Made by a program: the position numbers and the translations under genes. A DNA stretch of 64,000 nucleotides from Parapedobacter defluvii (GTDB lineage: Bacteria; Bacteroidota; Bacteroidia; Sphingobacteriales; Sphingobacteriaceae), in the NCBI RefSeq assembly GCF_014642075.1, contig NZ_BMIK01000017.1, forward strand, positions 1-64,000, written 5' to 3'. Positions 3,210 through 57,653 of this stretch are shown piece after piece. Positions within the stretch are counted from its first letter, which is position 1, and the number at the start of each line of letters is the position of its first letter. Below the pieces are notes generated by a model that worked only from the letters and a program-made list of their open reading frames with translations, ran no database searches and was not told where the DNA came from.

Positions 3210-6200
3210 TTAAAATGTGAGATTCAAACCAAAATTATACAACCGGGTGATCGGGTAATCCCTGCTGTTCGTCAGTTCGGGATCGAATTCTTTCGTAGGC
3301 AGCTTATCCCAGGTAAAAAGATTGAGGCCATTGGCATAGATACGCAGCCGCTTTGCCCCGATACGGGATGACCACCTACCCGGCAGAGAATAGCCGATTT
3401 CCATATTTTTCAACCGGAGGTAACTGGCATTCAGTATGAAGAATGAGTTGGCCCGCTCGTTGGGGCTGGCCTGCGTGGTCAGACGTGGATAGTTGATGGG
3501 TGCTCCCGAAGCGGCGCGCTCTTCCGTCCAGCTTTCGAGGTGCCGGGCTACGTAGTTGTTGCCGGCGAAAACCCCCTGGTCGCTGTAGAAGTTACTTACA
3601 TTGGCAATTCCCTGCAGGAGCACACTGATGTCGAACGTTTTATAATTGACGTTGAGGGCCAATCCGTATTGGTATTCGGGTACCGTTGAATAACCGATGG
3701 GCGAAATATCCCGCTCGTTGATCACATTGTCTCCGTTCAGATCGCGATACTTAAAGTCGCCCGGGCGTGATTCGTGCCCGCCCACTTCCTGTACAGGCGA
3801 TTGCGCAATGTCTGCCGCATCTTTAAAGTAGCCGTCAACGATGTAACCGAACATCTGCCCGATACGGTATCCGGTTTCCCGGTAGCGGTAGGCGAAATCA
3901 TCCGGAAGCAAGGGCTCATCGGCAAATAGTTGTTTGTTGTGTGCGTAATTGAGGTTTAACCGGGTCAGGATAGAGAGATCGCTGTGGATGGTTTTCCGGT
4001 AGTTCAATTCGATTTCGTAACCCCGGTTCTCAATCACGCCGATATTCACCGGTGGCAGGACACTGGCGGGAAGCCCGTTCATCTCGGGTATGATCCCCCG
4101 GTTCCGCAGGATGTTGTCCCGCTTCTCGTAGAACGCATCGGCCACAAGTGTCAGGTCGTTGAACAGGCCGATTTCGAGGCCGACATTGTATTTGTTGGCA
4201 ACTTCCCACTGCAACCGGCTATTTTTAAGCAGGTTGTAGGCAATGGTCTGACCGTTGCCCAAGCTACCCGAAAAGCCTCCGCCAACCGCCTGTATGTCGT
4301 CAATGTATAAAAACCGCCGGCTGCCGATCCGGTCGTTACCGACCTGGCCGTAAGAACCTCTCAGCTTCAACAGGGTCAGCACTTCCTTATCCTTATAGAA
4401 CGGCTCGTTGGATACGACCCAGCTGGCAGATACCGCGGGGAAAAACCCAAAACGGTTATGCTTCGCAAATTGCTCGGAGCCGTTGTAACCCGCGTTGAAT
4501 TCGACAAAGTAGCGCCCGCCGTATCCGTAGGTCAGGCGGGATGCCGTACCCATCAGCTTATAGGGCAATTGGTTGTCGATGATCGTGCTCTGCTGCTGGT
4601 ATAACAGCATACCCGAAATGTCATGCTGCCCAAAAGACCGGGCATAGTTCAGAAAAGCCTGGACATTGGACAGGGTATTGAATCCACGCCCCCCACCGAT
4701 GTTCAGGGGCGTATTCTGGTCGTTGTTGAACAAGCGGTAGTACACGCTGTCCCGACCGTCGGCACCGGTTAGGTTGGGGTTGATGATCTGCACATATTTC
4801 TCGTAACTGCGGCTGGCCTCCAGGTTGTTTACCGTGCGTGCATCGAACGACACAACCGCTCGGGCCGACAGGCCCTCGGTGATGAAATCGAGCTTCTGCT
4901 CCATGCCGTACGTTGCCAGCACATTGCTGCGTGTCTGCTTGATGTATCCGGAGCGGTTAATCAATCCATAGGCCGGACGGTCGACGTTGTCAAAGGTGAT
5001 GACTTCGCCATCCGGAGTCAACGGACCAGGCACAACCGAAGGCATGTTGTTCATGAAATAGATGATCCAATCGGTGGGATTATCGCCCCCCAAGGCATAA
5101 GGGCTGTTGCGCTGCTCCAGGTAGCCGGCAACATTCAGAAACGCCTTGAGGTTTTTATTGATCTGGATGTCAATGTTCGACCGGAAATTATACCGGTCTA
5201 GCTTAAAGGTCGGGTTGTAGTTCAGGTCACGCTCGGTATTGAACTGCCCACCCTGATTGAGGTAGCCGGCGTTGACAAAGTAATGGGTCAGTTTGCCCTT
5301 ACCGGAGATATTCAGGTTATATCGCTGTTGGTACGATACGTCTTTTACCAAGATATCCCGCCAGTCGGTATTCGGATACCGCAGCGGGTCTTCCTGGGTG
5401 CGGTACAATTCCAGCGCTTCGGCGCTGTATTGCTCGGGCAGCCCGTCGTTGCGCAGCGCCAGGTTCCGCAGCGAAGCGAAGTCATACGAATTGACCGGGC
5501 TGATAAACCGCGGAAAATCCTGGGCGCCCAGCTCGGCGATCAGGTTTACCTCGGGGACCTCCGAAGTGCCGCGTTTGGTGGTAACGAGGATAACGCCGTT
5601 AGCACCCCTCACCCCGAATATGGCGGTGGAAGAGGCATCTTTCAGGATGGTCACCGATTCCACCTCGTTGGGGTCAATATAGGTAAGATCGCGCTCAATG
5701 CCGTCTACCAGTACAATGGGGCTTTGCGCATTGACGGTGCCCTGCCCCCGGATAAACAGCTGGGTAATATCCCGGCCGGGCTGGCCGGTACGTTGGATGG
5801 AGGTAAGCCCCGGAAGCCGCCCGGCCAGACTCACGGCAAGATTGGCCGCGGGGCTTTGGCGGATTTCCTTGGTCTGGATGGAGGAGATGGCCCCGGTAAC
5901 CGTCGCCTTTTTCTGGGCGCCGAAAGCGACTACCACCACCTCATCCAGTGGCGAAAGGTCTGCTACCATCGTAATCCGGAGCGGATCGGCCGAAGGCCTG
6001 ATCTCCTGGCTTACGTAACCGACGATGGAGACTACTAAAACGGCGTCCGGCCCAGTAACCTGTATGGCAAATGTCCCGTTTTCATCGGTAGACACCCCGT
6101 TTAATGTCCCCTTTTCCTGCACGCTGGCCGGCGATAACGGTTCCCCCGATTCGTTGACGACTACCCCCGTTACCAATTGCTGCTGTACGGAAGCGGCGGA

Positions 6201-6566
6201 TTTACCGGATTTTATGATGACCATGTTGCCATCCAGCACCTCGTACGACAGACCGACCTGCTCCAGGTAGGGTGCCAGCACTCGGTCCCATTCCTGGTTA
6301 TCGGCGGTCACATTCCGGAGCGTCTGTTTACCCAGCGCATCGTCGTTGTAGACAAAATGGAGCGGAGTCTGGCGTTCGATTTCCTTGATTAACTTTTTAA
6401 TAGACGTTTCACGCATCTTTACCGACACCTTAATTTGCCCAAATGCCTCTGTGGCTTGGAGTTGGATGCACGACGCGATCAGAAAAAACAAAACTAGTTT
6501 TGCCATAAGCAACCACTTGAGGGTCATACGAAAAAAAGACCCCATGTGAAGTACATGAAATTTCAT
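3210..6566 (-). CDS. SusC/RagA-family TonB-dependent transporter with N-terminal STN signalling domain
   Basis: The 1118-residue protein is an outer-membrane transporter. After a signal sequence (to about residue 42) come a secretin/TonB N-terminal short (STN) domain at about 50-120, a carboxypeptidase-regulatory-like domain at about 130-210, the plug (VVVVAFGAQKK box, then the DASSTAIFGVRGANGVI box near residue 315), and a beta-barrel ending in an aromatic residue. STN domains contact FecR-type anti-sigma factors, and a FecR and an ECF sigma gene lie directly upstream, so this is a signalling transporter. The start codon at 6566 is preceded by an element (minus strand CTAACTAATTAAAACC, plus 6581-6596) that recurs upstream of another susC in this window. 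Confidence 0.96.
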   Translation of the reverse strand: MKFHVLHMGSFFRMTLKWLLMAKLVLFFLIASCIQLQATEAFGQIKVSVKMRETSIKKLIKEIERQTPLHFVYNDDALGKQTLRNVTADNQEWDRVLAPYLEQVGLSYEVLDGNMVIIKSGKSAASVQQQLVTGVVVNESGEPLSPASVQEKGTLNGVSTDENGTFAIQVTGPDAVLVVSIVGYVSQEIRPSADPLRITMVADLSPLDEVVVVAFGAQKKATVTGAISSIQTKEIRQSPAANLAVSLAGRLPGLTSIQRTGQPGRDITQLFIRGQGTVNAQSPIVLVDGIERDLTYIDPNEVESVTILKDASSTAIFGVRGANGVILVTTKRGTSEVPEVNLIAELGAQDFPRFISPVNSYDFASLRNLALRNDGLPEQYSAEALELYRTQEDPLRYPNTDWRDILVKDVSYQQRYNLNISGKGKLTHYFVNAGYLNQGGQFNTERDLNYNPTFKLDRYNFRSNIDIQINKNLKAFLNVAGYLEQRNSPYALGGDNPTDWIIYFMNNMPSVVPGPLTPDGEVITFDNVDRPAYGLINRSGYIKQTRSNVLATYGMEQKLDFITEGLSARAVVSFDARTVNNLEASRSYEKYVQIINPNLTGADGRDSVYYRLFNNDQNTPLNIGGGRGFNTLSNVQAFLNYARSFGQHDISGMLLYQQQSTIIDNQLPYKLMGTASRLTYGYGGRYFVEFNAGYNGSEQFAKHNRFGFFPAVSASWVVSNEPFYKDKEVLTLLKLRGSYGQVGNDRIGSRRFLYIDDIQAVGGGFSGSLGNGQTIAYNLLKNSRLQWEVANKYNVGLEIGLFNDLTLVADAFYEKRDNILRNRGIIPEMNGLPASVLPPVNIGVIENRGYEIELNYRKTIHSDLSILTRLNLNYAHNKQLFADEPLLPDDFAYRYRETGYRIGQMFGYIVDGYFKDAADIAQSPVQEVGGHESRPGDFKYRDLNGDNVINERDISPIGYSTVPEYQYGLALNVNYKTFDISVLLQGIANVSNFYSDQGVFAGNNYVARHLESWTEERAASGAPINYPRLTTQASPNERANSFFILNASYLRLKNMEIGYSLPGRWSSRIGAKRLRIYANGLNLFTWDKLPTKEFDPELTNSRDYPITRLYNFGLNLTF

Positions 6567-6580
6567 ATTTTTGAAAATTG

Positions 6581-6596
6581 GGTTTTAATTAGTTAG
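6581..6596 (-). promoter_or_regulatory. Conserved susC leader element
   Basis: The minus strand reads CTAACTAATTAAAACC, ending 14 nt before the susC start codon. A near copy (TAACCAATTA) sits at the same distance before the third susC gene (57387-57396), and a longer copy is at 40229-40247 on the plus strand. It lies in the translation-initiation region and could be paired by the candidate small RNA at 11545-11613. Function is inferred from position and recurrence only. Confidence 0.45.
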
Positions 6597-9026: not shown

Positions 9027-9068
9027 TAAGAAAAGTTACTAATATTGCCAATCAAATTTCAATCGCAA

Positions 9069-11474
9069 ATGAAACCTTATAATTACGTAGTGTACTTATT
9101 ATCCGTGATTTTTCTCGGTATTTCAGGGGTTTATGCCCAAAATAACGGTCGCGCAGTAGTGTCTGGAAAAGTTTCCACCTCGAACGGCCTACCCGCAGCA
9201 GCGGTAAGTGTCGCCGTGGTTGGTACCCGACAGGGAACAACAACCGATGAACAGGGACGATACCGCCTGGAATTGACTGAGGCGGGGCCCGTGACCCTGG
9301 AAGTCAGTGCGGTCGGTATGGCCAGACAGCGGAAAACCGTGACCGTAAGTGCCGGCACTCCGGTCGAACAGGATTTTACAATCGATATGACCAGCGCCCA
9401 GCTGCAGGAAGTCCTCATCACGCAATCCAGGGGTTATGCCACGCTGGCGCCTTCGCCTACCCTGCGGCTGGATGAACCGCTCGTGGAGATTCCCCAGAAT
9501 ATTCAGGTGGTTTCTCCCAAAGCGTTGGCCGACCAGCAGGTAATCAGCATGAGCGACGGGCTGATCCGCAACGTAAGCGGTGCCGTACGCCTGGAGCACT
9601 GGGGTAACCTCTACACGAATATCAGTATGCGGGGTACCCAGATACAGGCCCTCCGCAACGGGTTCAACGTGGTAACCTCCTATTGGGGGCCGCTCACCGA
9701 AGACATGAGTTTTGTGGATCATATTGAGTTTGTCAAAGGGCCCGCCGGGTTCCTGCTGTCAAATGGCGATCCTTCGGGTTCTTACAATGTGGTAACCAAG
9801 AAGCCAACGGGCGAGACCAAGGGCGAAGCTTCGGTCACGGTGGGCCAGTACAACCTGTACCGGACAGCGGTCGACCTGGACGGCAAGTTATCCCGGAACG
9901 GCAAGGTTCTGTACCGGCTGAATGTATCGGCGCAGGCCAAAGGTTCCCATCGTGCGAATGAATCCGACAACCGTTACGTGGTGGCCCCGGTGATTGCCTA
10001 CCGGCCGGATGACAAGACGACAATTACCGCGGAGTATACCCTGCAATATGCACGCATGTCTGACGTGGGTTCCTATTACGTATTCGGGCCCGTTAACAAG
10101 GGATATGCCTGGCTACCGCAAAATTTCACGATGACACCGGAGGGCCTGGATCCCACCAACATCACCGACCAAACGTTTCTGCTGAATGTGACCCGCGATC
10201 TTACCCCCAACTGGAAGGTAACCGCACAGGGCTATTACCTCCGGTACAGTCAAAAGGGTACTTCCATGTGGCCGGAGAGTGAGATGACTGACGACGGAAA
10301 AATCATCCGCGGGGTTGATATATGGGACGCCTTCAGCAGGTCAATCCTCGGCCAGGCATTTGTAAACGGCCATTTCAACACCAGCGGTATCCAGCACCGG
10401 GTGCTGGCGGGCGTTGACGTAGGTAACAAAGACTACATGGCCGATTGGTTGCAGAGCTTTGCGTTGGACACGGAAGATGATCCGTTTGATGTATACAACC
10501 CCGACCTTGGCCGACCGGCAAATGGCTATCCGGTGTTCGACCGGGAAACCTCCTTAAGCGAGCGGGCCGAAGCAGCCGGCGGCATCCAAACCCAACGCTA
10601 TGCCGGCGTATACCTACAGGATGAGTTGGGCTTTTTCGAAAACCAGCTACGCCTTACACTGGCCGGGCGCTACACCTGGGTAAAGCAGAGTGAATGGGGT
10701 GAAGAGGCTTACCAGGCCAGCCATTTCACGCCGCGTATCGGTCTGAGCTGGAGCATCGATGCCCATACATCTGCGTATGCCTTGTATGACCAGGCCTTTG
10801 TACCCTAGGCGGGACGCATTTACGGGGGCGGCAAGGTGAAGCCCATCACGGGCAATAACCAGGAAATCGGCATTAAACGCAACTGGGCAGGCGGCAACTG
10901 GAATACGAGCGTATCCGTGTACCGGATATTAAAGGAAAACGAGCTCACCGCTGATCCCATCCACAGCGATCCGAATCAAAGCTATAGCATTGTACTGGGC
11001 CAAAAGGTAGCGCGGGGCGTGGAGTTTGATGTACGGGGCCGCATCCTTCCCGGTTTCGACGTAACGGCCAACTATGCCTATACCAACGCAGAAATCACCA
11101 AGTTAAACGAGGGGGTGGAGGGCTTTGAAGTGGGCGACGTTGTACCCGGCTATTCCACCAATACGGCCAATGCCTGGCTCGATTATACCCTTCAGCGAGG
11201 CCCCCTGCGCAATGCAGGGATTTCCGCCGGTTTTACCTACCTCTGGGACCGGAAGACCTACGACGGCGAACTGGAAGGAATACCTTTTGACGATTATTTC
11301 AAATTGGATGCGGGCATCCATTACGGCATCAAAAACTTCACGGTCCGGTTAAATGCGTTCAACCTCCTGAATAACTACCTGTACAGTGGCTCGTACTACG
11401 AGTGGAACAATGCGTTTTACTGGCAAACCGAAACACCACGCAACCTACGGCTCTCAATTGGGTATAAATTCTAG
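9069..11474 (+). pseudogene. TonB-dependent siderophore receptor interrupted by an in-frame amber codon
   Basis: Read through one TAG at 10806-10808, this frame encodes a protein of 801 codons with a signal peptide ending VYAQ (about residue 24), a carboxypeptidase-regulatory-like domain (about 30-120), a plug (about 130-255, with LIRNVSGAVRLE and GDPSGSYNVVTKKP, as in FpvA/FhuE-type receptors) and a beta-barrel closing in a terminal Phe. The TAG is codon 580. The frame continues without a shift, with normal receptor sequence on both sides, and many family members have Gln after the preceding Phe-(Val/Ile)-Pro, so a CAG-to-TAG change is the simplest explanation. The start chosen is the ATG at 9069, which begins a proper signal peptide. 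The first 579 residues alone lack the last part of the barrel and should not insert. Sequencing error, a recent nonsense mutation or amber suppression are the options. Confidence 0.88.
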
Positions 11475-11509: not shown

Positions 11510-11540
11510 TTTGCATAGTGTAAAAAATACACTATCTTTG
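11510..11540 (+). promoter_or_regulatory. Consensus promoter with internal 19-bp inverted repeat
   Basis: TTTG (11510-11513), 19 bp, then TATCTTTG (11533-11540) is a perfect Bacteroidota promoter. Between and overlapping these elements lies TAGTGTA, five A, TACACTA (11516-11534), a perfect inverted repeat placed where a repressor would block polymerase. No protein-coding start follows before a terminator at 11574-11613, so the product should be a short RNA. Confidence 0.75.
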
Positions 11541-11544
11541 TGTC

Positions 11545-11613
11545 ATCATAATTTAGGTTTATAATTGGTTAGTAAAGGTTTCCATTCTCCCCGTTTGGAA
11601 ACCTTTCATTTTT
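11545..11613 (+). ncRNA. Candidate small RNA complementary to susC leaders
   Basis: The start is estimated a few bases after the -7 element. The roughly 70-nt transcript has an unstructured AT-rich 5' part and ends in a terminator: a perfect 10-bp stem (AAAGGTTTCC, 11574-11583, with GGAAACCTTT, 11597-11606) then CATTTTT. Positions 11554-11572 are complementary to plus-strand 40229-40247 over 19 nt with one G-U pair, and the core TAATTGGTTA (11562-11571) is complementary to the leader of the susC at 54320-57373 and, with one G-U pair, of the susC at 3210-6566. Small RNAs antisense to susC leaders are known in Bacteroides. This one would act in trans. It is not a known family that I recognise, and no transcript data are available. 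Confidence 0.55.
11574..11613 (+). terminator. Rho-independent terminator of the candidate small RNA
   Basis: A 10-bp perfect stem with a 13-nt loop is followed by CATTTTT. It ends transcription from the promoter at 11510-11540. It could also stop read-through from the siderophore receptor gene. Confidence 0.8.
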
Positions 11614-24700: not shown

Positions 24701-24950
24701 TCTCGTCGGTCATTGTAGAAGTTACGGTTCCTTTTTCCGTGACCGTGACACCCGCCAGCGGTGCACCGCTAACGTCGGTAACCTTGCCTGTGACCGTCGA
24801 CTGTTGCAGGCCGTGTATGCCACTTAAAGCCACCCACGGGGTTCCGTGTGCCAGCACCGCACCGGAAGACACCGAAAGGGGCACCACAAGGCAGCCTACT
24901 GTCAGCTGCCGCAACTTACGTGTGTAATGTTTGTAATCAATGGATCTCAT
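21726..24950 (-). CDS. SusC/RagA-family TonB-dependent transporter
   Basis: The frame is open to 25106, but the Met at 24950 starts a real signal peptide (a basic n-region, then a hydrophobic core ending near AVLAHG), giving 1074 residues. A carboxypeptidase-regulatory-like domain (about 50-130) comes first, with no STN domain, followed by the plug with VVVGYGTQKKK and DAASAAIYGARAANGVI boxes, and a large beta-barrel ending in Phe. Absence of an STN domain fits the absence of a FecR/sigma pair; the adjacent AraC-type membrane regulator is the likely controller. The leader holds a 7-bp hairpin (25031-25054). Confidence 0.95.
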   Translation of the reverse strand: MRSIDYKHYTRKLRQLTVGCLVVPLSVSSGAVLAHGTPWVALSGIHGLQQSTVTGKVTDVSGAPLAGVTVTEKGTVTSTMTDENGTFKLNVSSTNTLLVITSVGYVSQEVNVTSSTVTVALEEDINTLEELVVVGYGTQKKKLTTGASVQVKGEDIQKLSTTTVANALQSQSPGVQITQSSGMPGEGFKINIRGIGTIHDSQPLYVIDNVIGGDINSLNPSDIESIDILKDAASAAIYGARAANGVILITTKQGKAGKTTLNYDTFIGWQNVYKMPSLLTATEYMTIQDERMFNEGQAPYDWASLIPNQYQQIQDGTWNGTNWLEEIRNPNALTQNHAFNLTGGTDRSKFALGYSMAAQDGIFGKPVQPHLNRHTVRINSEHVILKNDDFDILKFGENLTYTYRVNSGIGIGNIYWNDVHNMMVGNPLLPVYNADGGYYDHTSKTADGWKFDGATFNPVADMVYRRGQNQSKNHSVMANAFAEIQPIKGLRLRSNFGYRLNASSYRSYTPTFHLSTTSINDIDDISQNQSVGYGWLLENTIAYQRTFGNAHALDAVLGQSIERWGIGEDLSVTTANSSFPGSWKRAYVGNWVAYPGYTPAIGGAHWGESNFAAFFGRLNYNYKETYMASVVMRADGSSNFSRSHRWGYFPSVAAGWNVTNESFMEGTGSWLNYLKLRASWGQNGNANIPPFQYLATIAIDNKNGYYFGNDKNTLLSGAYPDILPNEVVSWETSEQLNIGFDARFANDRLGVVFDWYNKSTINWLLQAPVLAIYGTEAPFINGGDVENRGVELGLNWNETVNDFTYSIGLNGAYNRNRVVKIANAEKLIEGQANVLSQGTLPMYRAQVGYPLGYFYGYKTAGIFQNAEQIADYRAQGLGVLETAQPGDVIFVDTNGDGAITNADKVQIGNPHPDFTAGLNLSFGYKGIDLGITAFGAFGQQVAKSYRSFADSPLQNYTTEVFQRWHGESTSNRYPRLTNGSHTNYQNISDIYIEDADFVKIQNITLGYNLKSAFPRLPLGQARLYLSAQNLYTFTGYSGMDPEIGYGDEQSWASGIDLGFYPAPRNFIIGLNVNF

Positions 24951-25054: not shown

Positions 25055-25223
25055 GCATACAAGAACCATAAAAGAGAACCTCGGGTTTGTCATAAAACAG
25101 AAACAACTGTTACCGGTAAAACGAATTGGTTATCGGGGTCAAAAATATGCCGGATGGCTGGTTTTAAGGGGATGGATATGTTAATAAATGGGGGTATTTT
25201 GGTTAACCCACGGGGTTATTGCC

Positions 25224-28133
25224 TCATTTGCGGTAGGCGGAAGGAACCACACCGTAAAGCTGTTTGAAATATTTGCTGAATTGCTTCGGATTGCCGAACC
25301 CCACTTCATAGGCAATTTCGGCGACGGTAAGGCCCGATTGCTCCAGCAACTGACCGGCCCTGCGCAGCCGGATATTGCGGATGAATTCAGAGGGGGTATG
25401 CCCTGTGATCGTCAACATCCGCTTATACAACGCGACGCGGCTCACGTTCATGGCCCTTGCCAGTTCTTCCACCGAAAAATCCGATTGCCCCAAATGTTGT
25501 TCAACGGTATCCAACACTTTGCGGAGAAACAGTTCGTCGGCAGAGGTCACCGGCTTTTCGGAGGGGAACACCTCCAGCTTTTTCTTATTGGCCTGCTCCA
25601 AAAATGCTTTCTGCTTAAGTACACTATCCAGCATGGAACGGGCTTCCTGCCGTTCGCGCTGCAAGGCAAAACGGGTTTTTTCGCGTGTCCGTTCAATATG
25701 GCGAACGGTCAGGATTCCGGTAGCCAGTACCAGTACATATGCCGCATATGCCCATCCTGTTTTCCATATCGGCGGCGATATGGAGAAGGTTGCCAGGGTG
25801 TAAGGTTTACTCCAGTTTTCGCCGTCTTCGGATACCATCACCTGAAACCGGTAGTCTCCGGGGTCCAGGTTCGTAAACGTAGCCTTGCGCGTACGCCGGT
25901 CCATCGCCACCCAGTCGGCATCGAACCCCTCCAACTTATACCGGAAAGAAGCCCGGTCTTTATTGAGGAAATACAGCGAAGCGACCACAAACCCCAGGAC
26001 ATTCTGATCGTGGGTAAATTTTAGTCGCCCGTCCAGCCATTGCGGAGCCTCCATACTCCGGTTTAACAGCTGGAGGTCTGTCAGTACGGGCACAGCCAAC
26101 GACGAAGGCGGCGACTGGATATGCGCGGGATCGATGCTATTAAACCCCGACGGACCGCCGAAAAACAGTTCGCCCGTTGATAACAGGCAGGCTGCATCTT
26201 CATTGAATGCGTTGCCCTGTAAACCGTCGCGGCGGTCGTAATTCCAGAAACGCCACTGTCCGGGTGTACCCACTCCCTCCCGCATTGCTGAAATTCCCCG
26301 TGCAGTGCTCACCCAAATCGTTCCTTCCTTGTCTTCAACCACGGCCATCACGGTATTGTCTGACAGCCCATCTTCCATGCGGAACACCCGGAATGTATCG
26401 CTGGTGGCATCGTAAAGATTGAGGCCGTCCCGCGTAGCCACCCAGATCCGGTGGCGATGGTCTTCGATGATCCCGTTCACATGATCGTTGCTAAGCGCAC
26501 CCGCCTTGCCATCGCGATAGGAAAACAACTTGAACGATCCATCCGGCATGAGCAGCTCGATGCCGGATGCGGTACCAAACCACACCCTCCCGCTGTGGTC
26601 TTCCGTAATAGCCGATAGGTAGGCCGACTGCGTGAATCCCTGACTGCCAAACCCCAACCGGGTAAACCGGCCTGTCTTGCGGTCAAACGTGGCTACCCCC
26701 GCCCGAAGCGTACCCACCCAAAACCGCCCCTGGCTGTCTTCGCAAATTTCCCATACGCTGTTGTCAGGAATGGATGCCGGATCAAGGGGGTCATGCATGT
26801 ACCGCACAAACCGCTTTCCATCGAAACGATTGAGCCCTCCATGGTACGTACCGACCCAAAGCACGTCATCGCGGTCCATATACAGGCTTACGATTACATC
26901 GCTGCCAATACTATTGGGATCATCGGGATTGTGCCGGTAGGGTATAAATCGGTTAGCTTGCCGGTCAAAATAGATCAATCCTCCCCCATTACTTCCGATC
27001 CATACATTTCCATGCCTGTCTTCCACAAATTGGTTGATATCGTCAAATGGCAATACCATCTCGCCCGTACCCCGTCGCCGCTGATACAGCGCGAACTGGA
27101 CCTGACTGGGATGGTAATAGCTGATACCACGCTTGAACGTACCGGCCCACATAATTCCTTCGCGGTCGCAATAAAGGGACATGATGCTGTTTTGGCTAAC
27201 CGTACGGTCGTTGTATTCGTCGTGCAACAGGTAAGAAACCCGCCTGCTCCGGGGATTGACCACGTTCAGCCCGCCGTGATCCGTAGCAATCCAGATGTTG
27301 CCATCCGGGTCCTCGGCCATCCCGAAAACAATCGGATTACTCAACTTCATGCCTGCGGACTCCGTAGTCAGGTGTACCGGAGGGGCTTGTTTCTCCGGCC
27401 ACCAATAAACCCCTTTGGAAAAATTAAAGGCATATACCCATGGATGTCCGTTTCGATCCATAAACAGCCGGAAATCCGCACCTTCCTCGTAATCTACCCC
27501 ATCATTGGGAAGTTGATAAACGGCAAGGGCGTTACGCTCCAGTTGGCGTACGGTACCCCTTTGGTCAACCGCCCACGCCTGCCCCGAACGATCCAATGCG
27601 ATACCCGTAACGGGAACGCCGGTCTCCGGCGCCGCATAAGAAGAAACGGTTCCGCGCTGTTCGTCATAGCAAGATACCAGCCCCCCGATCTGCAAAAACC
27701 AGCATTTGCCCTGGGTACTGCAGCGGATATCCAGCACTTCGGCAACCGGCAACCCCAACGATTGCAGCACACTGTCTCCGTTACGTATAAATTGCTCCCG
27801 GCTATCGTCGTAAATGTTAATGCCGAGCTTTGTCTTTACCCATAGCTGTTCCCCCGGCCCGGGAAACAACCCGAGTATGTCGTTATCGGCAATGCTCCGG
27901 GCCTGGCTGGCAGCATGCCGGAATACTTTTATCTCGTGCCCGTCGTACCGGTTAAGGCCCGCAGGTGTACCAAACCAAAGGAAACCGCGTTTGTCTTTTA
28001 CAATGGCCGTGACGTGATTATGGGATAATCCATCTTCTACGCTCAACTGCTGGAATTGAATGGTCTGCGCAGCACCGCAAAAGGGCAACAGCCACCATCC
28101 AACAACCAACCCGCAAAAGAGTACACGCAACAT
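25224..28133 (-). CDS. Membrane-spanning propeller / Y_Y_Y / AraC-type regulator without a kinase
   Basis: From the ATG at 28133 the product is 969 residues: a signal sequence (ends about residue 22), many two-component-regulator propeller repeats (about 30-650; units such as GFLWFGTPAGLNRYDG, NVWIGSNGGGLIYFD and VLWVGTYHGGLNRFDG), a Y_Y_Y Ig-like domain (about 690-755, FRYKLEGFDADWV), one transmembrane helix (about 765-785), a short coiled coil, and a C-terminal AraC-type double helix-turn-helix (about 870-967, ending QFSKYFKQLYGVVPSAYRK). The periplasmic part is that of hybrid two-component systems that sense oligosaccharides, but no histidine kinase or receiver lies between membrane and DNA-binding domain. 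It is directly upstream of the susC-susD unit and probably regulates it. Confidence 0.92.
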   Translation of the reverse strand: MLRVLFCGLVVGWWLLPFCGAAQTIQFQQLSVEDGLSHNHVTAIVKDKRGFLWFGTPAGLNRYDGHEIKVFRHAASQARSIADNDILGLFPGPGEQLWVKTKLGINIYDDSREQFIRNGDSVLQSLGLPVAEVLDIRCSTQGKCWFLQIGGLVSCYDEQRGTVSSYAAPETGVPVTGIALDRSGQAWAVDQRGTVRQLERNALAVYQLPNDGVDYEEGADFRLFMDRNGHPWVYAFNFSKGVYWWPEKQAPPVHLTTESAGMKLSNPIVFGMAEDPDGNIWIATDHGGLNVVNPRSRRVSYLLHDEYNDRTVSQNSIMSLYCDREGIMWAGTFKRGISYYHPSQVQFALYQRRRGTGEMVLPFDDINQFVEDRHGNVWIGSNGGGLIYFDRQANRFIPYRHNPDDPNSIGSDVIVSLYMDRDDVLWVGTYHGGLNRFDGKRFVRYMHDPLDPASIPDNSVWEICEDSQGRFWVGTLRAGVATFDRKTGRFTRLGFGSQGFTQSAYLSAITEDHSGRVWFGTASGIELLMPDGSFKLFSYRDGKAGALSNDHVNGIIEDHRHRIWVATRDGLNLYDATSDTFRVFRMEDGLSDNTVMAVVEDKEGTIWVSTARGISAMREGVGTPGQWRFWNYDRRDGLQGNAFNEDAACLLSTGELFFGGPSGFNSIDPAHIQSPPSSLAVPVLTDLQLLNRSMEAPQWLDGRLKFTHDQNVLGFVVASLYFLNKDRASFRYKLEGFDADWVAMDRRTRKATFTNLDPGDYRFQVMVSEDGENWSKPYTLATFSISPPIWKTGWAYAAYVLVLATGILTVRHIERTREKTRFALQRERQEARSMLDSVLKQKAFLEQANKKKLEVFPSEKPVTSADELFLRKVLDTVEQHLGQSDFSVEELARAMNVSRVALYKRMLTITGHTPSEFIRNIRLRRAGQLLEQSGLTVAEIAYEVGFGNPKQFSKYFKQLYGVVPSAYRK

Positions 28134-40096: not shown

Positions 40097-40307
40097 ATGA
40101 CAGGGGAAAATGGTTTGGTTCAAACACTTTTTAACTTGGTTTGAGAAGTAAGTGAATCATAAATTACTCGATATTGTAAACATAAATTGATGATAGACCG
40201 CCATGTCTCAAAACTGGGATAACACTCGCTAACCAGTTATAAACCTATTTGTTTATTTTTTTGCAAAAAACGGCAACAAGCATGGGAAAGCTTGATGCCG
40301 TTTTTGC
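40097..40307 (+). ncRNA. Candidate structured RNA of about 210 nt
   Basis: Bounded by a perfect promoter and a strong terminator, this stretch has internal hairpins (TCAAAC/GTTTGA near 40130-40155; AACTGG at 40212-40217 with CCAGTT at 40233-40238). The only frames are very short: a 15-codon one from the ATG at 40097 and a 10-codon one later. Positions 40229-40247 (CTAACCAGTTATAAACCTA) match the susC leader element and are complementary to the small RNA at 11554-11572. It may be a regulatory RNA, a decoy for that small RNA, or the leader left behind by a lost susC gene. It does not match an RNA family that I recognise. Confidence 0.4.
40263..40307. terminator. Bidirectional terminator
   Basis: A long stem of about 17 bp (GC-A-rich arm 40263-40281 with arm 40290-40307, one bulge and one mismatch) has A-runs and T-runs on both sides, so it works on both strands. 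On the minus strand it lies 19 bp after the Crp/Fnr stop and should end that gene. On the plus strand it ends transcripts from 40091. Confidence 0.85.
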
Positions 40308-49669: not shown

Positions 49670-51682
49670 TTAAAGTTTCGGGCCGTCAAACCCCAACTTG
49701 CGCAGTCCATCCTTAATTTCGGGTGCGCTCATGAATAAATCCCAAAGCAATCCGGTACGGTGATTTTCGATCATCACGATGATCGGCCCCTGGTCAATGG
49801 CAAGGTAAGAATCGGCCACCCATTGCTGGGTACTATTGAAGGCGTCATAAAATCCATACGTACCCCAAAGCTTATCGCCCATGGTGTAGTAGAAAAACTT
49901 CAATGCCTCCATCGATTCATCCGGGGTATACGGAAATGCGGAAAGCGCGGCGGTCGGCGAGATCACTCCCAGATCATTGGTGGGCGAATGCGCCGAGTAG
50001 CCTTCGTGATTATCACTCGCTGTAAGTCCCCATCCGCCAGTCGGCGGACCATAGCCTACGTACTTGCGGGGATTTCGGATACAGTATCGATAATTAATCA
50101 AGGTATGATTCACATTTTGTGTCCAATAATCGGCATATGCATCGCTCAACCCCCTTGGATCGATACCAAGGAAAGAATATTGGCTGAAAAACAGCGGGCC
50201 ACCATACTCAGCGCCCAACGGCAGCTCAACACCTTCGTACGTTGCTCCGTTTCGCATCTCACCGTTTCTCGCCCAGCCTTTGCTGTAAACCGTTTCGGGG
50301 ATACCATGCGTAGGCGATGCAGCGGCCAGTACATAGGTAATCAAACATTCGTTCCATCCACGGATGGGAAGGTTCATGACCCAGGCCTTATCCGGCGACC
50401 AATGCCAGTAGAGTACATCCTGTCCATCCCGCCGGTACCAATCCCACTCCACGGATTGCCAAAGCACATTGACACGGTCTATCAGTTGCTTTTCGGCAGG
50501 TGTGGAAGCTGCCAGATACTGACGCATGGTAATAAGCCCCTGCATCAACAATGACGTTTCCACCAAATCACCCCCGTTGTCATTGGTGCTAAACGGCATT
50601 ACCGCACCGGTATTCCCGTTGATCCAGTGCGACCAGGCCCCGTGGAAACGGTCGGCTGTTTCAAGGAAACTGACGATGCGTTCCAGGCGTTCGACACCCT
50701 GGTTACGTGAAATAAATCCCCTTTCCATCCCCACAATCAGCGCCATAATGCCAAAACCGGAGCCACCGGTGGTCACCAAATCCCCCGAGGTGTTACGCTC
50801 ACGGGCCATACCGCTGTTGGGATGGGCAAAATCCCAAAAGTAGTTGAAGGTTTGCCGCTGCACCAGGGTGAGCAGCTCCTCATCCGAGATAACCGGAAAC
50901 TTGGGTGCCGGGTCTAGGGTGGTATAGAGTGTCTTTGTCAAACCCGAAAAGCGTTCGCCACCCGCACCCACCAGTGCATCCGAGATGCGCAATTCGTATT
51001 TGGTGAGTCCGTCCAATGACGCATTGCTGACTAAAGTAACCGATTGTGCATCCGAAGCAAGGCCCAGTTGGATATTGGCCGTACCCGTAGCTCCGGTCAG
51101 CGTAATAGCCTTCTCCAAAGACGCTTGGTCCACCGGATTCGAAAAACGGAGCGTCAGCTGCAATTCCAGGGGAATATCGGTCAGCACATTGTCCTGTCCC
51201 TTATTTTCCCCATCCACCTCGATGGCGACCACCTGCAGGTCTTCCACCAGGGTCTTAAATTGGATCGCATAGACCGGTCCGCGGCTACCATCCGTACCCC
51301 GGAGTTGTTCGGAGACCGCCAGGGTGTACGTAGCATTACTGCGCAGGGGGCCACTGGGGTGTACCACCACGCTGGCCCCACCGGAAAGGAACGCGAGACT
51401 TACTGCCACGGGCCCATCGCCGTTGCTCAGTGTAATGGCCGTATGGGCCGTAGCTTGATCGACCGGCTGCGAAAAGACCAGGGTGATGCTTCGGTCGAGT
51501 GGAACTCCATCCACAACCGTTCCATCGAGCGCGAGGGCCACCTCGCCAACCGATACCTGTAAGAGCGTAAGCGTACCTACCGGATTTTTCTTACATCCTG
51601 CCAGTAAACCAGCAAGAAGTATAAAATAAACGAATCGTATCGGTACGCTTACGCTCATCTGCCCACTCTTAATTATCTTCAA
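49670..51682 (-). CDS. GH144-like glucanase with N-terminal Ig-like domains, lipoprotein
   Basis: The 670-residue protein has a lipobox LAGC (Cys about residue 30), two Big_5-type Ig-like domains (about 35-145 and 150-260; each has a VxGVPLDRSITLVFSQPVD or DIPLELQLTLRFSNPVD opening) and the same (alpha/alpha)6 catalytic domain as its downstream neighbour (about 275-670). The shared blocks NDNGGDLVETS, YWHWSPDKAW and SPTAALSAFPYTPDES show a duplication. The Ig-like domains may hold the enzyme away from the surface or bind glycan. The start at 51682 overlaps the LamG gene by 14 bp; the Met at 51658 would avoid this and is equally possible. Confidence 0.9.
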   Translation of the reverse strand: MKIIKSGQMSVSVPIRFVYFILLAGLLAGCKKNPVGTLTLLQVSVGEVALALDGTVVDGVPLDRSITLVFSQPVDQATAHTAITLSNGDGPVAVSLAFLSGGASVVVHPSGPLRSNATYTLAVSEQLRGTDGSRGPVYAIQFKTLVEDLQVVAIEVDGENKGQDNVLTDIPLELQLTLRFSNPVDQASLEKAITLTGATGTANIQLGLASDAQSVTLVSNASLDGLTKYELRISDALVGAGGERFSGLTKTLYTTLDPAPKFPVISDEELLTLVQRQTFNYFWDFAHPNSGMARERNTSGDLVTTGGSGFGIMALIVGMERGFISRNQGVERLERIVSFLETADRFHGAWSHWINGNTGAVMPFSTNDNGGDLVETSLLMQGLITMRQYLAASTPAEKQLIDRVNVLWQSVEWDWYRRDGQDVLYWHWSPDKAWVMNLPIRGWNECLITYVLAAASPTHGIPETVYSKGWARNGEMRNGATYEGVELPLGAEYGGPLFFSQYSFLGIDPRGLSDAYADYWTQNVNHTLINYRYCIRNPRKYVGYGPPTGGWGLTASDNHEGYSAHSPTNDLGVISPTAALSAFPYTPDESMEALKFFYYTMGDKLWGTYGFYDAFNSTQQWVADSYLAIDQGPIIVMIENHRTGLLWDLFMSAPEIKDGLRKLGFDGPKL

Positions 51683-52736
51683 CCATCTGCTGTATTTCCT
51701 CCTGGGTCAGTGCTTTGTCGAAAATACGCAGTTCGTCGATCAAACTGAGATCCGACAAGTGCCCCCATTCGGTAAAATTGGGTGCTCCAGAACCAATGGT
51801 AAGGATATCACAGTTTGCCCAGCTGATTCCCGGGTAGGCTCCTTGGCTTACCACATTGCCGTTGATGTACACCGCACATTGGTCTCCCGCAATCGTAAAT
51901 GCGACGTGTATCCAATCGCTGCCTGCGTCGATATCCGCCGCTGCACCGCCATCAAACCAGTTGTCTGCGGCACCATTCCCCACATTGAGCTTGATCCGTT
52001 GCTTTGCACCCGCTGCTTCGCGGAATAAGCGGAAGCCGCTTGTTCGGTTATTGTTCGTCGGATCGGGAGGACTCACTGTCAAAATACCCCCGCGGTCTGG
52101 CACGGCGTTCACTTTATACCAGAACGACGCGCTGAACTCGTCGTTGATCACGTCGGCAGCCGGCAACGTTAGGTAGCCATTGGTCGCACCGGCGTAGGCA
52201 CGCCCCGATTTGCCTGCTGCAAAACCCGGGCTTCCCACCTTGGTTGCACTGATATTTCCCAAAAGATCGAGGTAAACATCTCCCTCAAACGGCATGTAGA
52301 AGATCTCGCCGTCGTATTTGGCTTGATATACGTTGCTGATTTCAAAATCAAAGCTTTTGGTTGTGCTTTTGCCGGACACATCCGTAGCCGTCACTTCCAC
52401 GGTATAGTCGCCAATGGGCAGTGTTTCGCTGAGGTGCGTTGCCGCTACCCTGCGGTAGTCTTTGAAGCTGTCAAGCGTAGTCAATGTGTTTCCGTTGAGT
52501 GCGACGGAAATCGACGTGATCTCGATGTCGTCCTTTACCTCGAACTCAAAATTGATTTTTGTCGATTCCTCTGTAAATGGAATCAGTACAACGTCTGTAG
52601 CCGGATAGCCGATGGTTACTTCCGGGGCAGACTCATCGGCTCCGGGCTGTACCGGTTGGATGTCGTCGATATAGCCGTTTTGGCACGACGTAGCAACAAA
52701 CAGCAAGACGAGCAGTTTATTTAGTTTCTTGTTCAT
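51669..52736 (-). CDS. LamG-domain surface glycan-binding lipoprotein
   Basis: The 355-residue protein has a lipobox ATSC (Cys about residue 18), an Ig-like region (about 45-135) and a concanavalin/LamG-type jelly roll (about 145-350) with the usual marks: YMPFEGDVYLDLLGN, EFSASFWYKV, WIHVAFTIAGDQCAVYINGNVV and LSLIDELRIFDKALTQEEI. It comes third in the operon, right after SusD, where surface glycan-binding proteins are expected. No catalytic residues are evident, so binding rather than cleavage is likely. Confidence 0.92.
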   Translation of the reverse strand: MNKKLNKLLVLLFVATSCQNGYIDDIQPVQPGADESAPEVTIGYPATDVVLIPFTEESTKINFEFEVKDDIEITSISVALNGNTLTTLDSFKDYRRVAATHLSETLPIGDYTVEVTATDVSGKSTTKSFDFEISNVYQAKYDGEIFYMPFEGDVYLDLLGNISATKVGSPGFAAGKSGRAYAGATNGYLTLPAADVINDEFSASFWYKVNAVPDRGGILTVSPPDPTNNNRTSGFRLFREAAGAKQRIKLNVGNGAADNWFDGGAAADIDAGSDWIHVAFTIAGDQCAVYINGNVVSQGAYPGISWANCDILTIGSGAPNFTEWGHLSDLSLIDELRIFDKALTQEEIQQMVEDN

Positions 52737-57300: not shown

Positions 57301-57373
57301 CTCTGCTTTGCTGCCCATATGCCGCAACGGACCACATGCACAGCGTCAATAAGCACGTAAATAAACTCCTCAT
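54320..57373 (-). CDS. SusC/RagA-family TonB-dependent transporter
   Basis: The 1017-residue protein has a signal peptide (ending AAYGQ at about 21), a carboxypeptidase-regulatory-like domain (about 25-95), a plug (VVVVGYGTQRQRD box, DASASAIYGVRAGNGVV box about residue 210) and a barrel. There is no STN domain, so sigma/FecR signalling through this protein is not expected, and no regulator gene flanks the operon. It heads an eight-gene minus-strand operon. Its leader carries the TAACCAATTA element 14-23 nt before the start codon, and a 19-bp inverted repeat lies 262 bp upstream (57635-57653). Confidence 0.96.
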   Translation of the reverse strand: MRSLFTCLLTLCMWSVAAYGQQSRVSGKVTDALTSGGIPGVTVLVKGSTTAAQTDASGNYSIEAAGTDTLIFRSLGFAAQEIPIAGRTMVDVVLEDQGTELEEVVVVGYGTQRQRDLTTAVVTVRADDIAKTPNAQAMQSLQGRVAGVQIVSNGAPGASPTVRLRGIGSFEGNAAPLYVVDGMFFDNIDFLNPNDIETISVLKDASASAIYGVRAGNGVVLIETKSGAYNKPGEIVYDAYYGIQNPQNVLKMANAQQFVQYINQTGSAADIALVQNAMQRYGRSRIDPNLPDVNTDWYNEIMSPAPIQNHNLSFNGGGESTRYSIGGSYFNQEGLLDLQRNNYRRLNFRVKVDSKVKDWLNVGGNFNVSTARQYNGENTAWFRSYFAVPILPVYDDGNAKATPVKYANAQQIGYRGSQNPFFPLEYIDNRNHVAKMLGNFHAEVNVWENKLKFRTQYNYGLGFVNTRRVDFEYNDGVTQHQSAIRRRNTSSFDQVWDNFLTYDDNFGKHNLNVVLGQSYRSEYAELLYARGTGIAPAPSRAAEQFWYLSNATEFDVNGIGDANDGDDKAINANLQFLSFFGRAAYNYDDRYLLYTTFRRDGNNKFQKTWGNFATVGAGWVLSEEDFFDVEGIDFLKFRASWGQLGNDAISPSVGLPTVEENNGAIDGTRIIGRRLNPTFDLITQWETTVEKNFGLDAQFLNNRLSLEADYFIRDTRNLAVTIVPPVFASAERRSVGEIRNQGLELNLNWRDNLSEDFSYNIGGNIATLKNKVLGLGGADGLNAGSAEFRQRSIIGQPYQAFYGYEVTGVFDDTQEIQNTYNADFISEKSLVPGDLIFKDQNGDGIIDDKDRVVLGSYMPDFTWGANLGFRYKKLEFAALLQGQMGYHILNRKRGEMIFTNDTNIDADLATNLWTEERGSAKNYPSASGLRRAWNQVMSSYFVEKGSYFRLQNVRLSYSFLGKEINGITWPETRVTLTAERPLTMFKYNGFNPEVADGVDREVYPIPAIYTLGVTIKL

Positions 57374-57386
57374 GTTGTACTCAATT

Positions 57387-57396
57387 TAATTGGTTA
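57387..57396 (-). promoter_or_regulatory. susC leader element before the eight-gene operon
   Basis: The minus strand reads TAACCAATTA, 14-23 nt upstream of the susC ATG, the same place as the related element at 6581-6596. It is fully complementary to positions 11562-11571 of the candidate small RNA. Confidence 0.45.
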
Positions 57397-57634: not shown

Positions 57635-57653
57635 TTGTGTATTTTATACACTA
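57635..57653. promoter_or_regulatory. 19-bp inverted repeat TTGTGTA-N5-TACACTA
   Basis: Same length, half-site and spacing as the repeat in the small-RNA promoter at 11516-11534, with one difference in one half-site. It lies in the 409-bp gene-free stretch (57374-57782) between the divergent susC and the hypothetical gene, 262 bp from susC and 130 bp from the other start. The stretch is AT-rich and also has a short palindrome (CAGCAA/TTGCTG near 57420). No clear -33/-7 pair was found for susC. Confidence 0.5.

Follow-up and report, generated by a model that had tools for sequence, protein, structure and literature searches.

The susC/susD operons constitute the main glycan-uptake machinery of Bacteroidota, and a short locus at 11546-11613 of the window, by which we mean the whole 64,000-nt stretch of Parapedobacter defluvii DNA under analysis, raises the question of whether a trans-encoded small RNA (sRNA) acts on the translation of these operons. 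A preliminary description had proposed a single RNA that recognizes several susC leaders. We think it likely that the locus is, instead of a single RNA, one of approximately 17 paralogous sRNAs of about 65 nt, which are similar to the FopS family of Bacteroides thetaiotaomicron and repress the translation of susC and other PUL genes.

The locus can be read as a complete small transcription unit (Table 1). The promoter elements TTTG and TATCTTTG are 19 nt apart, in agreement with the sigma-ABfr consensus. The predicted transcript ends with a perfect 11-bp hairpin (arms 11574-11584 and 11596-11606) and, directly after it, CATTTTT; the short unit with promoter and terminator that had been proposed for 11545-11613 is thus confirmed. 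In its minimum fold (-14.8 kcal/mol, z -2.68) the first 26 nt are unpaired. The unit begins 71 nt past the stop codon of a frame for a TonB receptor, and a convergent ankyrin gene lies beyond it. Near 10806 an in-frame stop splits this TonB-dependent receptor frame (9045-11474) into two ORFs, so that the gene is either decayed or affected by a sequencing error. The Rfam search gave no match anywhere in the window at the gathering score and, at relaxed thresholds, no credible family for the locus or for 14 copy-bearing loci, the FopS model possibly being absent from the Rfam set; no match was obtained when plasmid and phage records were searched with the locus.

Table 1. Features of the window related to the predicted sRNA (coordinates of the window)
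Feature	Position	Strand	Basis and remarks
Predicted small RNA, one of ~17 paralogs	11546-11613	+	Covariance model match of 71.4 bits, and fold; ends predicted
-33 element TTTG of sigma-ABfr-type promoter	11510-11513	+	Read from sequence; 19 nt before -7 element
-7 element TATCTTTG	11533-11540	+	Read from sequence
Operator-like palindrome AGTGTA-N5-TACACT	11517-11533		Overlaps promoter spacer and -7 element
5' seed region	11546-11573	+	28 nt, mostly unpaired; core GGTTTATAATTGGTTAG at 11556-11572
Terminator hairpin and T run	11574-11613	+	Loop ATTCTCCCCGTTT, common to 11/16 aligned copies
Predicted target site TAACCAATTA	57387-57396	-	-14 to -23 of susC start 57373; duplex -11.3 kcal/mol
Predicted target site CTAACTAATTA, one G-U	6586-6596	-	-20 to -30 of susC start 6566; duplex -17.3 kcal/mol
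Gene with laminin-G-like lectin/glucanase domain (PF13385)	51669-52736	-	Duplex -19.0; among the best non-susC predictions
Reg_prop/Y_Y_Y/AraC regulator (Pfam)	25224-28133	-	Duplex -17.6; among the best non-susC predictions
Degenerate partial copy	40210-40255	-	Core with one change; R1 19.6 bits, E 0.095; no terminator hairpin directly after

When the window's genome (5.8 Mb in 66 contigs; G000) was searched with the locus, four more near-full copies and about 12 partial matches were found. The core GGTTTATAATTGGTTAG occurs exactly 16 times in this genome, with a 17th occurrence carrying one C at window position 40229, and if up to two mismatches are permitted there are 21 matches against 2 for the backward control. 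The covariance model gave 17 matches, including one visibly decayed copy on contig C15, which holds several sRNA copies inside a few kb. The 16 aligned copies follow one plan, i.e., a variable upstream part, a nearly fixed TCATAATTTAGGTTTATAATTGGTTAGT and a hairpin with a variable stem, and while the 17-nt core is nearly fixed among them, promoters and hairpin stems vary. Minimum folds leave the first 23 nt unpaired in 15 of the 16, the exception being the copy on C29. Partial or decayed copies, at C15:2085-2113, C15:46826-46878 and window 40210-40255, suggest that copies have been gained and lost.

Conservation was investigated by a covariance model search in a set of 60 relatives, the own genome included, of which 31 have matches. 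All nine genomes of the same genus match, with 8-24 copies each (17 in the own genome), as do 21 of the 28 genomes from other genera of the family, and among 23 genomes from other families of the class there is one marginal match (E 0.009). In a sample of the phylum, 16 of 392 genomes match the sRNA model, a lower bound because scoring covered 13 candidates in each genome; every genome with at least two matches belongs to the Sphingobacteriaceae, six genomes outside the family have one weak match each, and none of the genomes sampled outside the family has more than one match at E 0.01. Among named genomes, at least 118 stretches hold the exact core; the model was scored on 80 of these, and 76 of the 80 listed carry a full match. 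The named records belong to Parapedobacter, Sphingobacterium, Mucilaginibacter, Olivibacter, Arcticibacter, Pedobacter, Daejeonella and Paradesertivirga, and another is titled 'bacterium A37T11'; six of the eight genera are Sphingobacteriaceae by look-up, and the other two presumably are as well. Core-bearing stretches labelled Archaeon HR02, Glaciecola, Hymenobacter and Flavobacterium have no model match and look like chance occurrences.

The hairpin has been conserved as a structure: in 49 aligned copies (47 distinct), each of the ten pairs has changed on both sides, and the paired fraction of cells is 98.1%; covariation was 0.80 against 0.27 for shuffled alignments, with the alignment fitted to the model and hence leaning towards it. 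The core is also present on 39 viral contigs (IMG/VR contigs L202-L240), 33 of which carry a full copy scoring at least 43 bits, so that phages or prophages may spread or use the sRNA. Single weak matches in family f26 (L183-L187) have segments resembling TTGGTTAG or TTAGTTTGG immediately ahead of a terminator and are perhaps a diverged relative outside the family, or chance; the latter reading is kept because the 10 matches obtained in G222 with E values up to 10 are what chance would give. Three loci of relatives in one genus (L182, L196 and L201; G028) show a pair of words of the TTGGTTAG or TTGGTTGG type ahead of the hairpin and may have a double seed.

The word TAATTGGTTA is found at both 11562-11571 and 57387-57396, and this confirms the complement that had been noted 14-23 nt before the ATG of the susC at 57373. 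The G-U-tolerant version noted before the ATG of the susC at 6566 is likewise present: TAATTAGTTA occupies 6586-6595 (-20 to -29), and extension to 6596 gives 11 bp with one G-U. The former duplex is only average for susC (susC mean -11.8 kcal/mol, other genes -9.2) and the latter is strong. For the third susC, whose start was picked at 24950, no good site is present, as had been described, its best duplex being -7.7 kcal/mol; a one-mismatch match at 25123-25132 would lie 17 nt before TTG 25106, were that the start of this gene. When the lone word was searched in the window with up to one mismatch, 10 matches were obtained against 4.2 expected, and 1 of 100 shuffles reached 10. This shared word is therefore modest evidence in itself, and the finding rises above chance because of the family of about 17 copies and the genome-wide enrichment of complementarity at susC leaders.

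For this enrichment, genes were taken as the longest ORFs in 1.25 Mb of the genome (61 stretches with 848 genes: the window, 45 stretches covering scored susC and 15 others), and the background is PUL-rich because 45 of the 61 stretches were picked to cover scored susC. Genes with fewer than 150 residues and genes cut off at a 5' end were dropped, susC start codons were picked by a simple signal-peptide rule, and 61 of 62 susC start regions were used, one having too short an upstream stretch. Over these 61 starts the mean duplex energy was -11.83 kcal/mol against -9.31 (sd 0.66) for 150 dinucleotide-shuffled seeds, none of which was as low; the difference between susC and 150 sampled other genes was -2.10 against -0.11 (sd 0.48) for shuffled seeds, again with 0/150 as low. 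When the other genes were taken by themselves, 16/150 shuffled seeds reached an energy as low as that of the seed. The susC duplexes were lower than those of 694 other genes (p 3e-10; t -6.3 once A+T and upstream gap were adjusted), and 8 of the top 20 genes by predicted duplex are susC.

Exact matches provide a cleaner test. Perfect 8-mer complements within 45 nt before the start are present in 16/61 susC and 32/694 other genes of the own genome, and no set of shuffled seeds was as high (0/1000), so the possibility raised earlier, that the complementarity is no better than for shuffled RNAs, does not agree with the data. In G023, which belongs to another genus of the family, has 14 sRNA copies and provided sufficient upstream sequence for 44 of its 48 susC above the cut-off, the counts were 17/44 and 13/292 (0/1000 shuffles as high). 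The control genomes without the sRNA are small, having 29, 10 and 10 susC: G242, of another family and with a best model match of E 0.8, gave 3/29 susC against 7/203 others (184/1000 shuffles as high), and G214 and G037, with no model match below E 3, gave 0/10 and 1/10 susC. Borderline values appeared in G242 at 9 nt (2/29 susC; 69/1000 shuffles, and 43/1000 for the 18-nt core alone) and in G037 at 7 nt (4/10 susC; 49/1000 shuffles). The energies in these sRNA-less genomes also lean to susC, with -11.0 against -9.3 for shuffled seeds in G242 (2/120 as low; 0/120 for susC minus others) and with 5/120 and 6/120 shuffles as low in G214 and G037, so that the general composition of leaders accounts for some of the energy signal. 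Exact matches separate the genomes better than energies do, yet not perfectly.

The 8-mer excess in the own susC is located at the start region (16/61 at -45 to -1, 0/500 shuffles; 17/61 at -20 to +10, 1/500), is small at -90 to -46 (6/61; 6/500), and was not found at -135 to -91 or within the gene. When the 6-mers of the own susC leaders were ranked blind to the seed, the top four by enrichment (AACCAA, CCAATT, AATTAT and ACCAAT) were all seed complements. In G023 the top leader words are not seed complements, which stand further down the list, and we count this against our reading, as we do the 45 of 61 own susC leaders without a perfect 8-mer and the lack of a good site at the third susC of the window. 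A compensatory change between seed and target was sought in G023 and not found: copies with GGTTAATAATTGG (one T-to-A) lack matching changes in targets, and the G000 seed pairs slightly better with G023 targets than does G023's own variant. Carbon-use or PUL-type domains are present in eight of the ten non-susC genes with the best predictions (xylose-isomerase-like barrel, GH26, laminin-G-like, FecR, LacI-type regulator, Reg_prop/AraC regulator, SusD and amidohydrolase), which is weak support because the stretches were sampled PUL-rich; the other two, SSB and a protein without Pfam match, are counted against. The complementarity of the seed to susC start regions is real, and a trans-encoded sRNA with a seed complementary to several susC starts, the central proposal of the preliminary description, is supported by computation. 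The designation as a general carbon-uptake switch is an overstatement, because a perfect 8-mer is present in roughly one in four susC leaders.

The reverse complement of the seed is CTAACCAATTATAAACCTAAATTATGA, i.e., a leader with its start codon. In the mechanism that we propose, the seed would pair with susC mRNA at -45 to +10 in the cell, the pairing would cover the ribosome landing site, and the uptake operon would be repressed, as reported for FopS on susC BT_3983 (PMC11697453). If copies under different promoters, some of them with a shared palindromic operator, are transcribed as predicted, several signals would converge on one brake on glycan uptake. Repression, and not activation, appears the most likely outcome of this pairing. 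If the seed mainly activated its targets, or acted as a sponge or competitor for another leader regulator, no ribosome block would be needed; the sequence itself gives no direction of effect, and many sites lie at -38 to -11, upstream of the start codon, where pairing might open the leader. Words that reach the start codon are, however, among the commonest (AAATTATG in 6/61 and AATTATGA in 5/61 susC), which fits occlusion, and the studied analogue FopS represses (PMC11697453), so that we consider such an activating or sponging role very unlikely.

Other explanations assign no role to pairing with susC. The sRNA might merely resemble a conserved translation enhancer of susC leaders and have other targets. 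AAACCA and AACCAA are the best susC-leader 6-mers also in the sRNA-less G242, and the aforementioned energies in sRNA-less genomes point the same way, but G242 has no excess of exact 7- or 8-mers and is borderline only at 9 nt, and in the own genome the 18-nt core by itself retains the preference for susC (24/61 against 54/694 for 7 nt; 0/1000 shuffles). We consider this explanation unlikely. An enhancer without conservation of the RNA had been envisaged as a counter-case, and the RNA is conserved in the family with a covarying hairpin. We find it rather improbable that the copies represent a dispersed terminator, a promoter-terminator cassette or a phage-borne repeat which does no base pairing and is similar to susC leaders only through their AU-richness. 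The nearly invariant 17-nt unpaired 5' segment would be superfluous for a terminator, and it is the stems that vary and the seed that hardly does; exact 8-mers at susC starts beat 1000/1000 shuffles in two genera and are concentrated at the start region; and the classes of copies share no upstream parts, unlike a mobile element. These points stand against the varied locations of the copies, their high frequency on seed-bearing viral contigs (33/39) and the susC lean of the energy test in genomes without the sRNA, all of which would be natural for such a cassette.

In our preferred reading, that of a repressing sRNA family, the copies would be controlled by different inputs. The sigma-ABfr-type promoter is clear at the window copy, and other copies show other upstream classes: the strict pattern TTG-N17-24-TAnnTTTG was found upstream of 4/16 own and 27/82 named copies, and the control windows, at most 92 in number, gave it 4 times. 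The exact palindrome AGTGTA-N5-TACACT occurs twice in the genome, both times at sRNA promoters. In the form AGTGT-N7-ACACT with up to one mismatch, it is present within 110 nt upstream of 23/98 copies (2/16 own and 21/82 named; 14 exact), against 0/92 windows 300-410 nt upstream and 0/97 downstream windows, and in 12 of the 23 copies it starts 29-30 nt before the start of the sRNA model. Besides the window copy, this form was observed across genera at L301, L246, L280, L298, L257, L310, L314, L296, L274, L255 and L320. A common transcription factor at these sRNA promoters may be supposed from the shared palindrome. A second upstream class has TTAACA repeats and GCGTTATATA (or a near form) before GTCTTTTCATA, and its members are the own copies on C26, C15 (three) and C1:1003580 and the Parapedobacter loci L250, L275, L277 and L318; the two classes together suggest several transcriptional inputs to one seed. 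A one-mismatch copy of the palindrome is also located at 57636-57652, approximately 265-280 nt upstream of the susC start 57373. A link of this susC to the same regulator was rejected as not above chance, the genome having 10 sites with up to one mismatch (two exact) against 7 for the backward control.

According to the FopS report (PMC11697453), FopS is a 14-member, mostly trans-acting family of B. thetaiotaomicron that represses susC translation; repression by FopS-10 of susC BT_3983 in vitro was lost by point changes and regained by compensating ones, northern sizes were about 65 and 70 nt, and sigma-ABfr promoters were reported for the genes. The present sRNAs resemble the published description of FopS in architecture, size and target site (PMC11697453). 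Both families are multicopy (14 there, about 17 here) and of similar length (~65-70 nt there, predicted here), with an unpaired 5' seed followed by a terminator; their targets, predicted in our case, are the start regions of susC and other first PUL genes; and FopS was reported in a phage, just as the Sphingobacteriaceae sRNA is found on viral contigs (PMC11697453). They differ in that FopS is described there as conserved in Bacteroidaceae, whereas the present family was found in Sphingobacteriaceae, and in the several upstream classes, the operator palindrome and, in relatives, the tRNA-like fusions seen here (PMC11697453). FopS is also antagonized by RbpB (PMC11697453), whereas no RRM_1 protein was found in the present genome: the search with PF00076, which covers RRM_1 and not unrelated chaperones, gave no match there, nor in G023 (14 sRNA copies) or G028, with Bacteroides ihuae as a positive control. 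Among the six genomes listed, the two with the most sRNA copies, G000 and G023, are without RRM_1. An RRM_1 protein is present in G020, G021 and G190 of the same family.

Other known sRNAs are less similar. GibS of B. thetaiotaomicron is likewise trans-acting with an extended single-stranded 5' seed pairing at start codons, but differs in its length of 145 nt, its extra hairpins and its targets, a glucan-branching enzyme and a hypothetical protein (PMC7366714). DonS-type cis-antisense RNAs (78-128 nt) share the negative control of susC by RNA, which we only infer here, and are encoded divergently to their targets, whereas the window copy lies 5 and 46 kb from its predicted targets in the window and is neither beside nor antisense to them (PMC7366714). 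LhrC1-7, Qrr and OmrA/B are also paralogous sRNAs with common sequence and targets, in other phyla and on other targets (PMC11697453). The earlier remark that a trans-encoded RNA of this type was not described fails at the phylum level, because the FopS family represses susC translation (PMC11697453). The kind of sRNA is thus already known from Bacteroides (2025), and what is new is the lineage, the absence of an RRM partner, the promoter classes and the tRNA-like fusion; in open-licence papers we found none on the present sRNA family, on Sphingobacteriaceae sRNAs aimed at susC or on the tRNA-like element.

A wider reading, which we offer tentatively as possible, is that Sphingobacteriaceae have their own large anti-susC sRNA network independent of RRM/RbpB, in which one seed would receive many inputs (a factor binding AGTGT-N7-ACACT, other promoters, and tRNA-like maturation with a new long-variable-arm domain) and prophage copies would perhaps throttle surface receptors of the host. 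If this holds, the network and FopS together would mean that the braking of glycan uptake by multicopy sRNAs is ancient in the phylum or has evolved there repeatedly; the sRNA control of susC/susD translation that we found in print comes from one gut species. A conserved family without the FopS-antagonizing RRM protein would make testable what the minimal anti-susC sRNA circuit is, in what way a single seed acts on numerous targets, and for what reason such genomes retain as many as two dozen copies.

The tRNA-like fusions of relatives give a concrete handle on the presumed processing of some sRNA copies. An element of 109-122 nt precedes the sRNA core by 14-18 nt at loci of Mucilaginibacter, Arcticibacter, Daejeonella, a Sphingobacterium MAG and others, often in tandem and followed by the sRNA. 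It has acceptor, D, anticodon and T arms, with a 7-bp acceptor showing compensatory changes, a Leu-like D arm, a TTCGA T loop, a variable arm of 37-51 nt and a U-U in the anticodon stem of 30/30 sequences. In these 30 sequences 95.3% of cells are paired against 90.8% in shuffles (0/500 as high), both sides have changed in 7/27 pairs (27/500 shuffles as high), and in pair types the sequences do not exceed the shuffles (452/500). The seed follows the element in 36/53 distinct copies, a fraction that is biased because most of these loci were chosen for carrying the seed. ARAGORN assigned no tRNA at the places of the upstream element (one tRNA-Ala was found elsewhere in L181), and Rfam at gathering score gave nothing in six loci bearing it. 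Unannotated copies were observed at L292:1574-1690, L286:3414-3522 and 3722-3832, L315:33-146, 976-1089 and 1381-1494, L241:5823-5939 and others. In the nine genomes of the window's genus no strong match (>95 bits) was found, and the matches of about 50 bits and 84-87 nt there are presumably ordinary tRNAs. G011, which has no sRNA match, carries seven strong matches, and three genomes outside the family carry weaker matches of 71-96 bits, so that the tRNA-like element appears separable from the sRNA and perhaps older.
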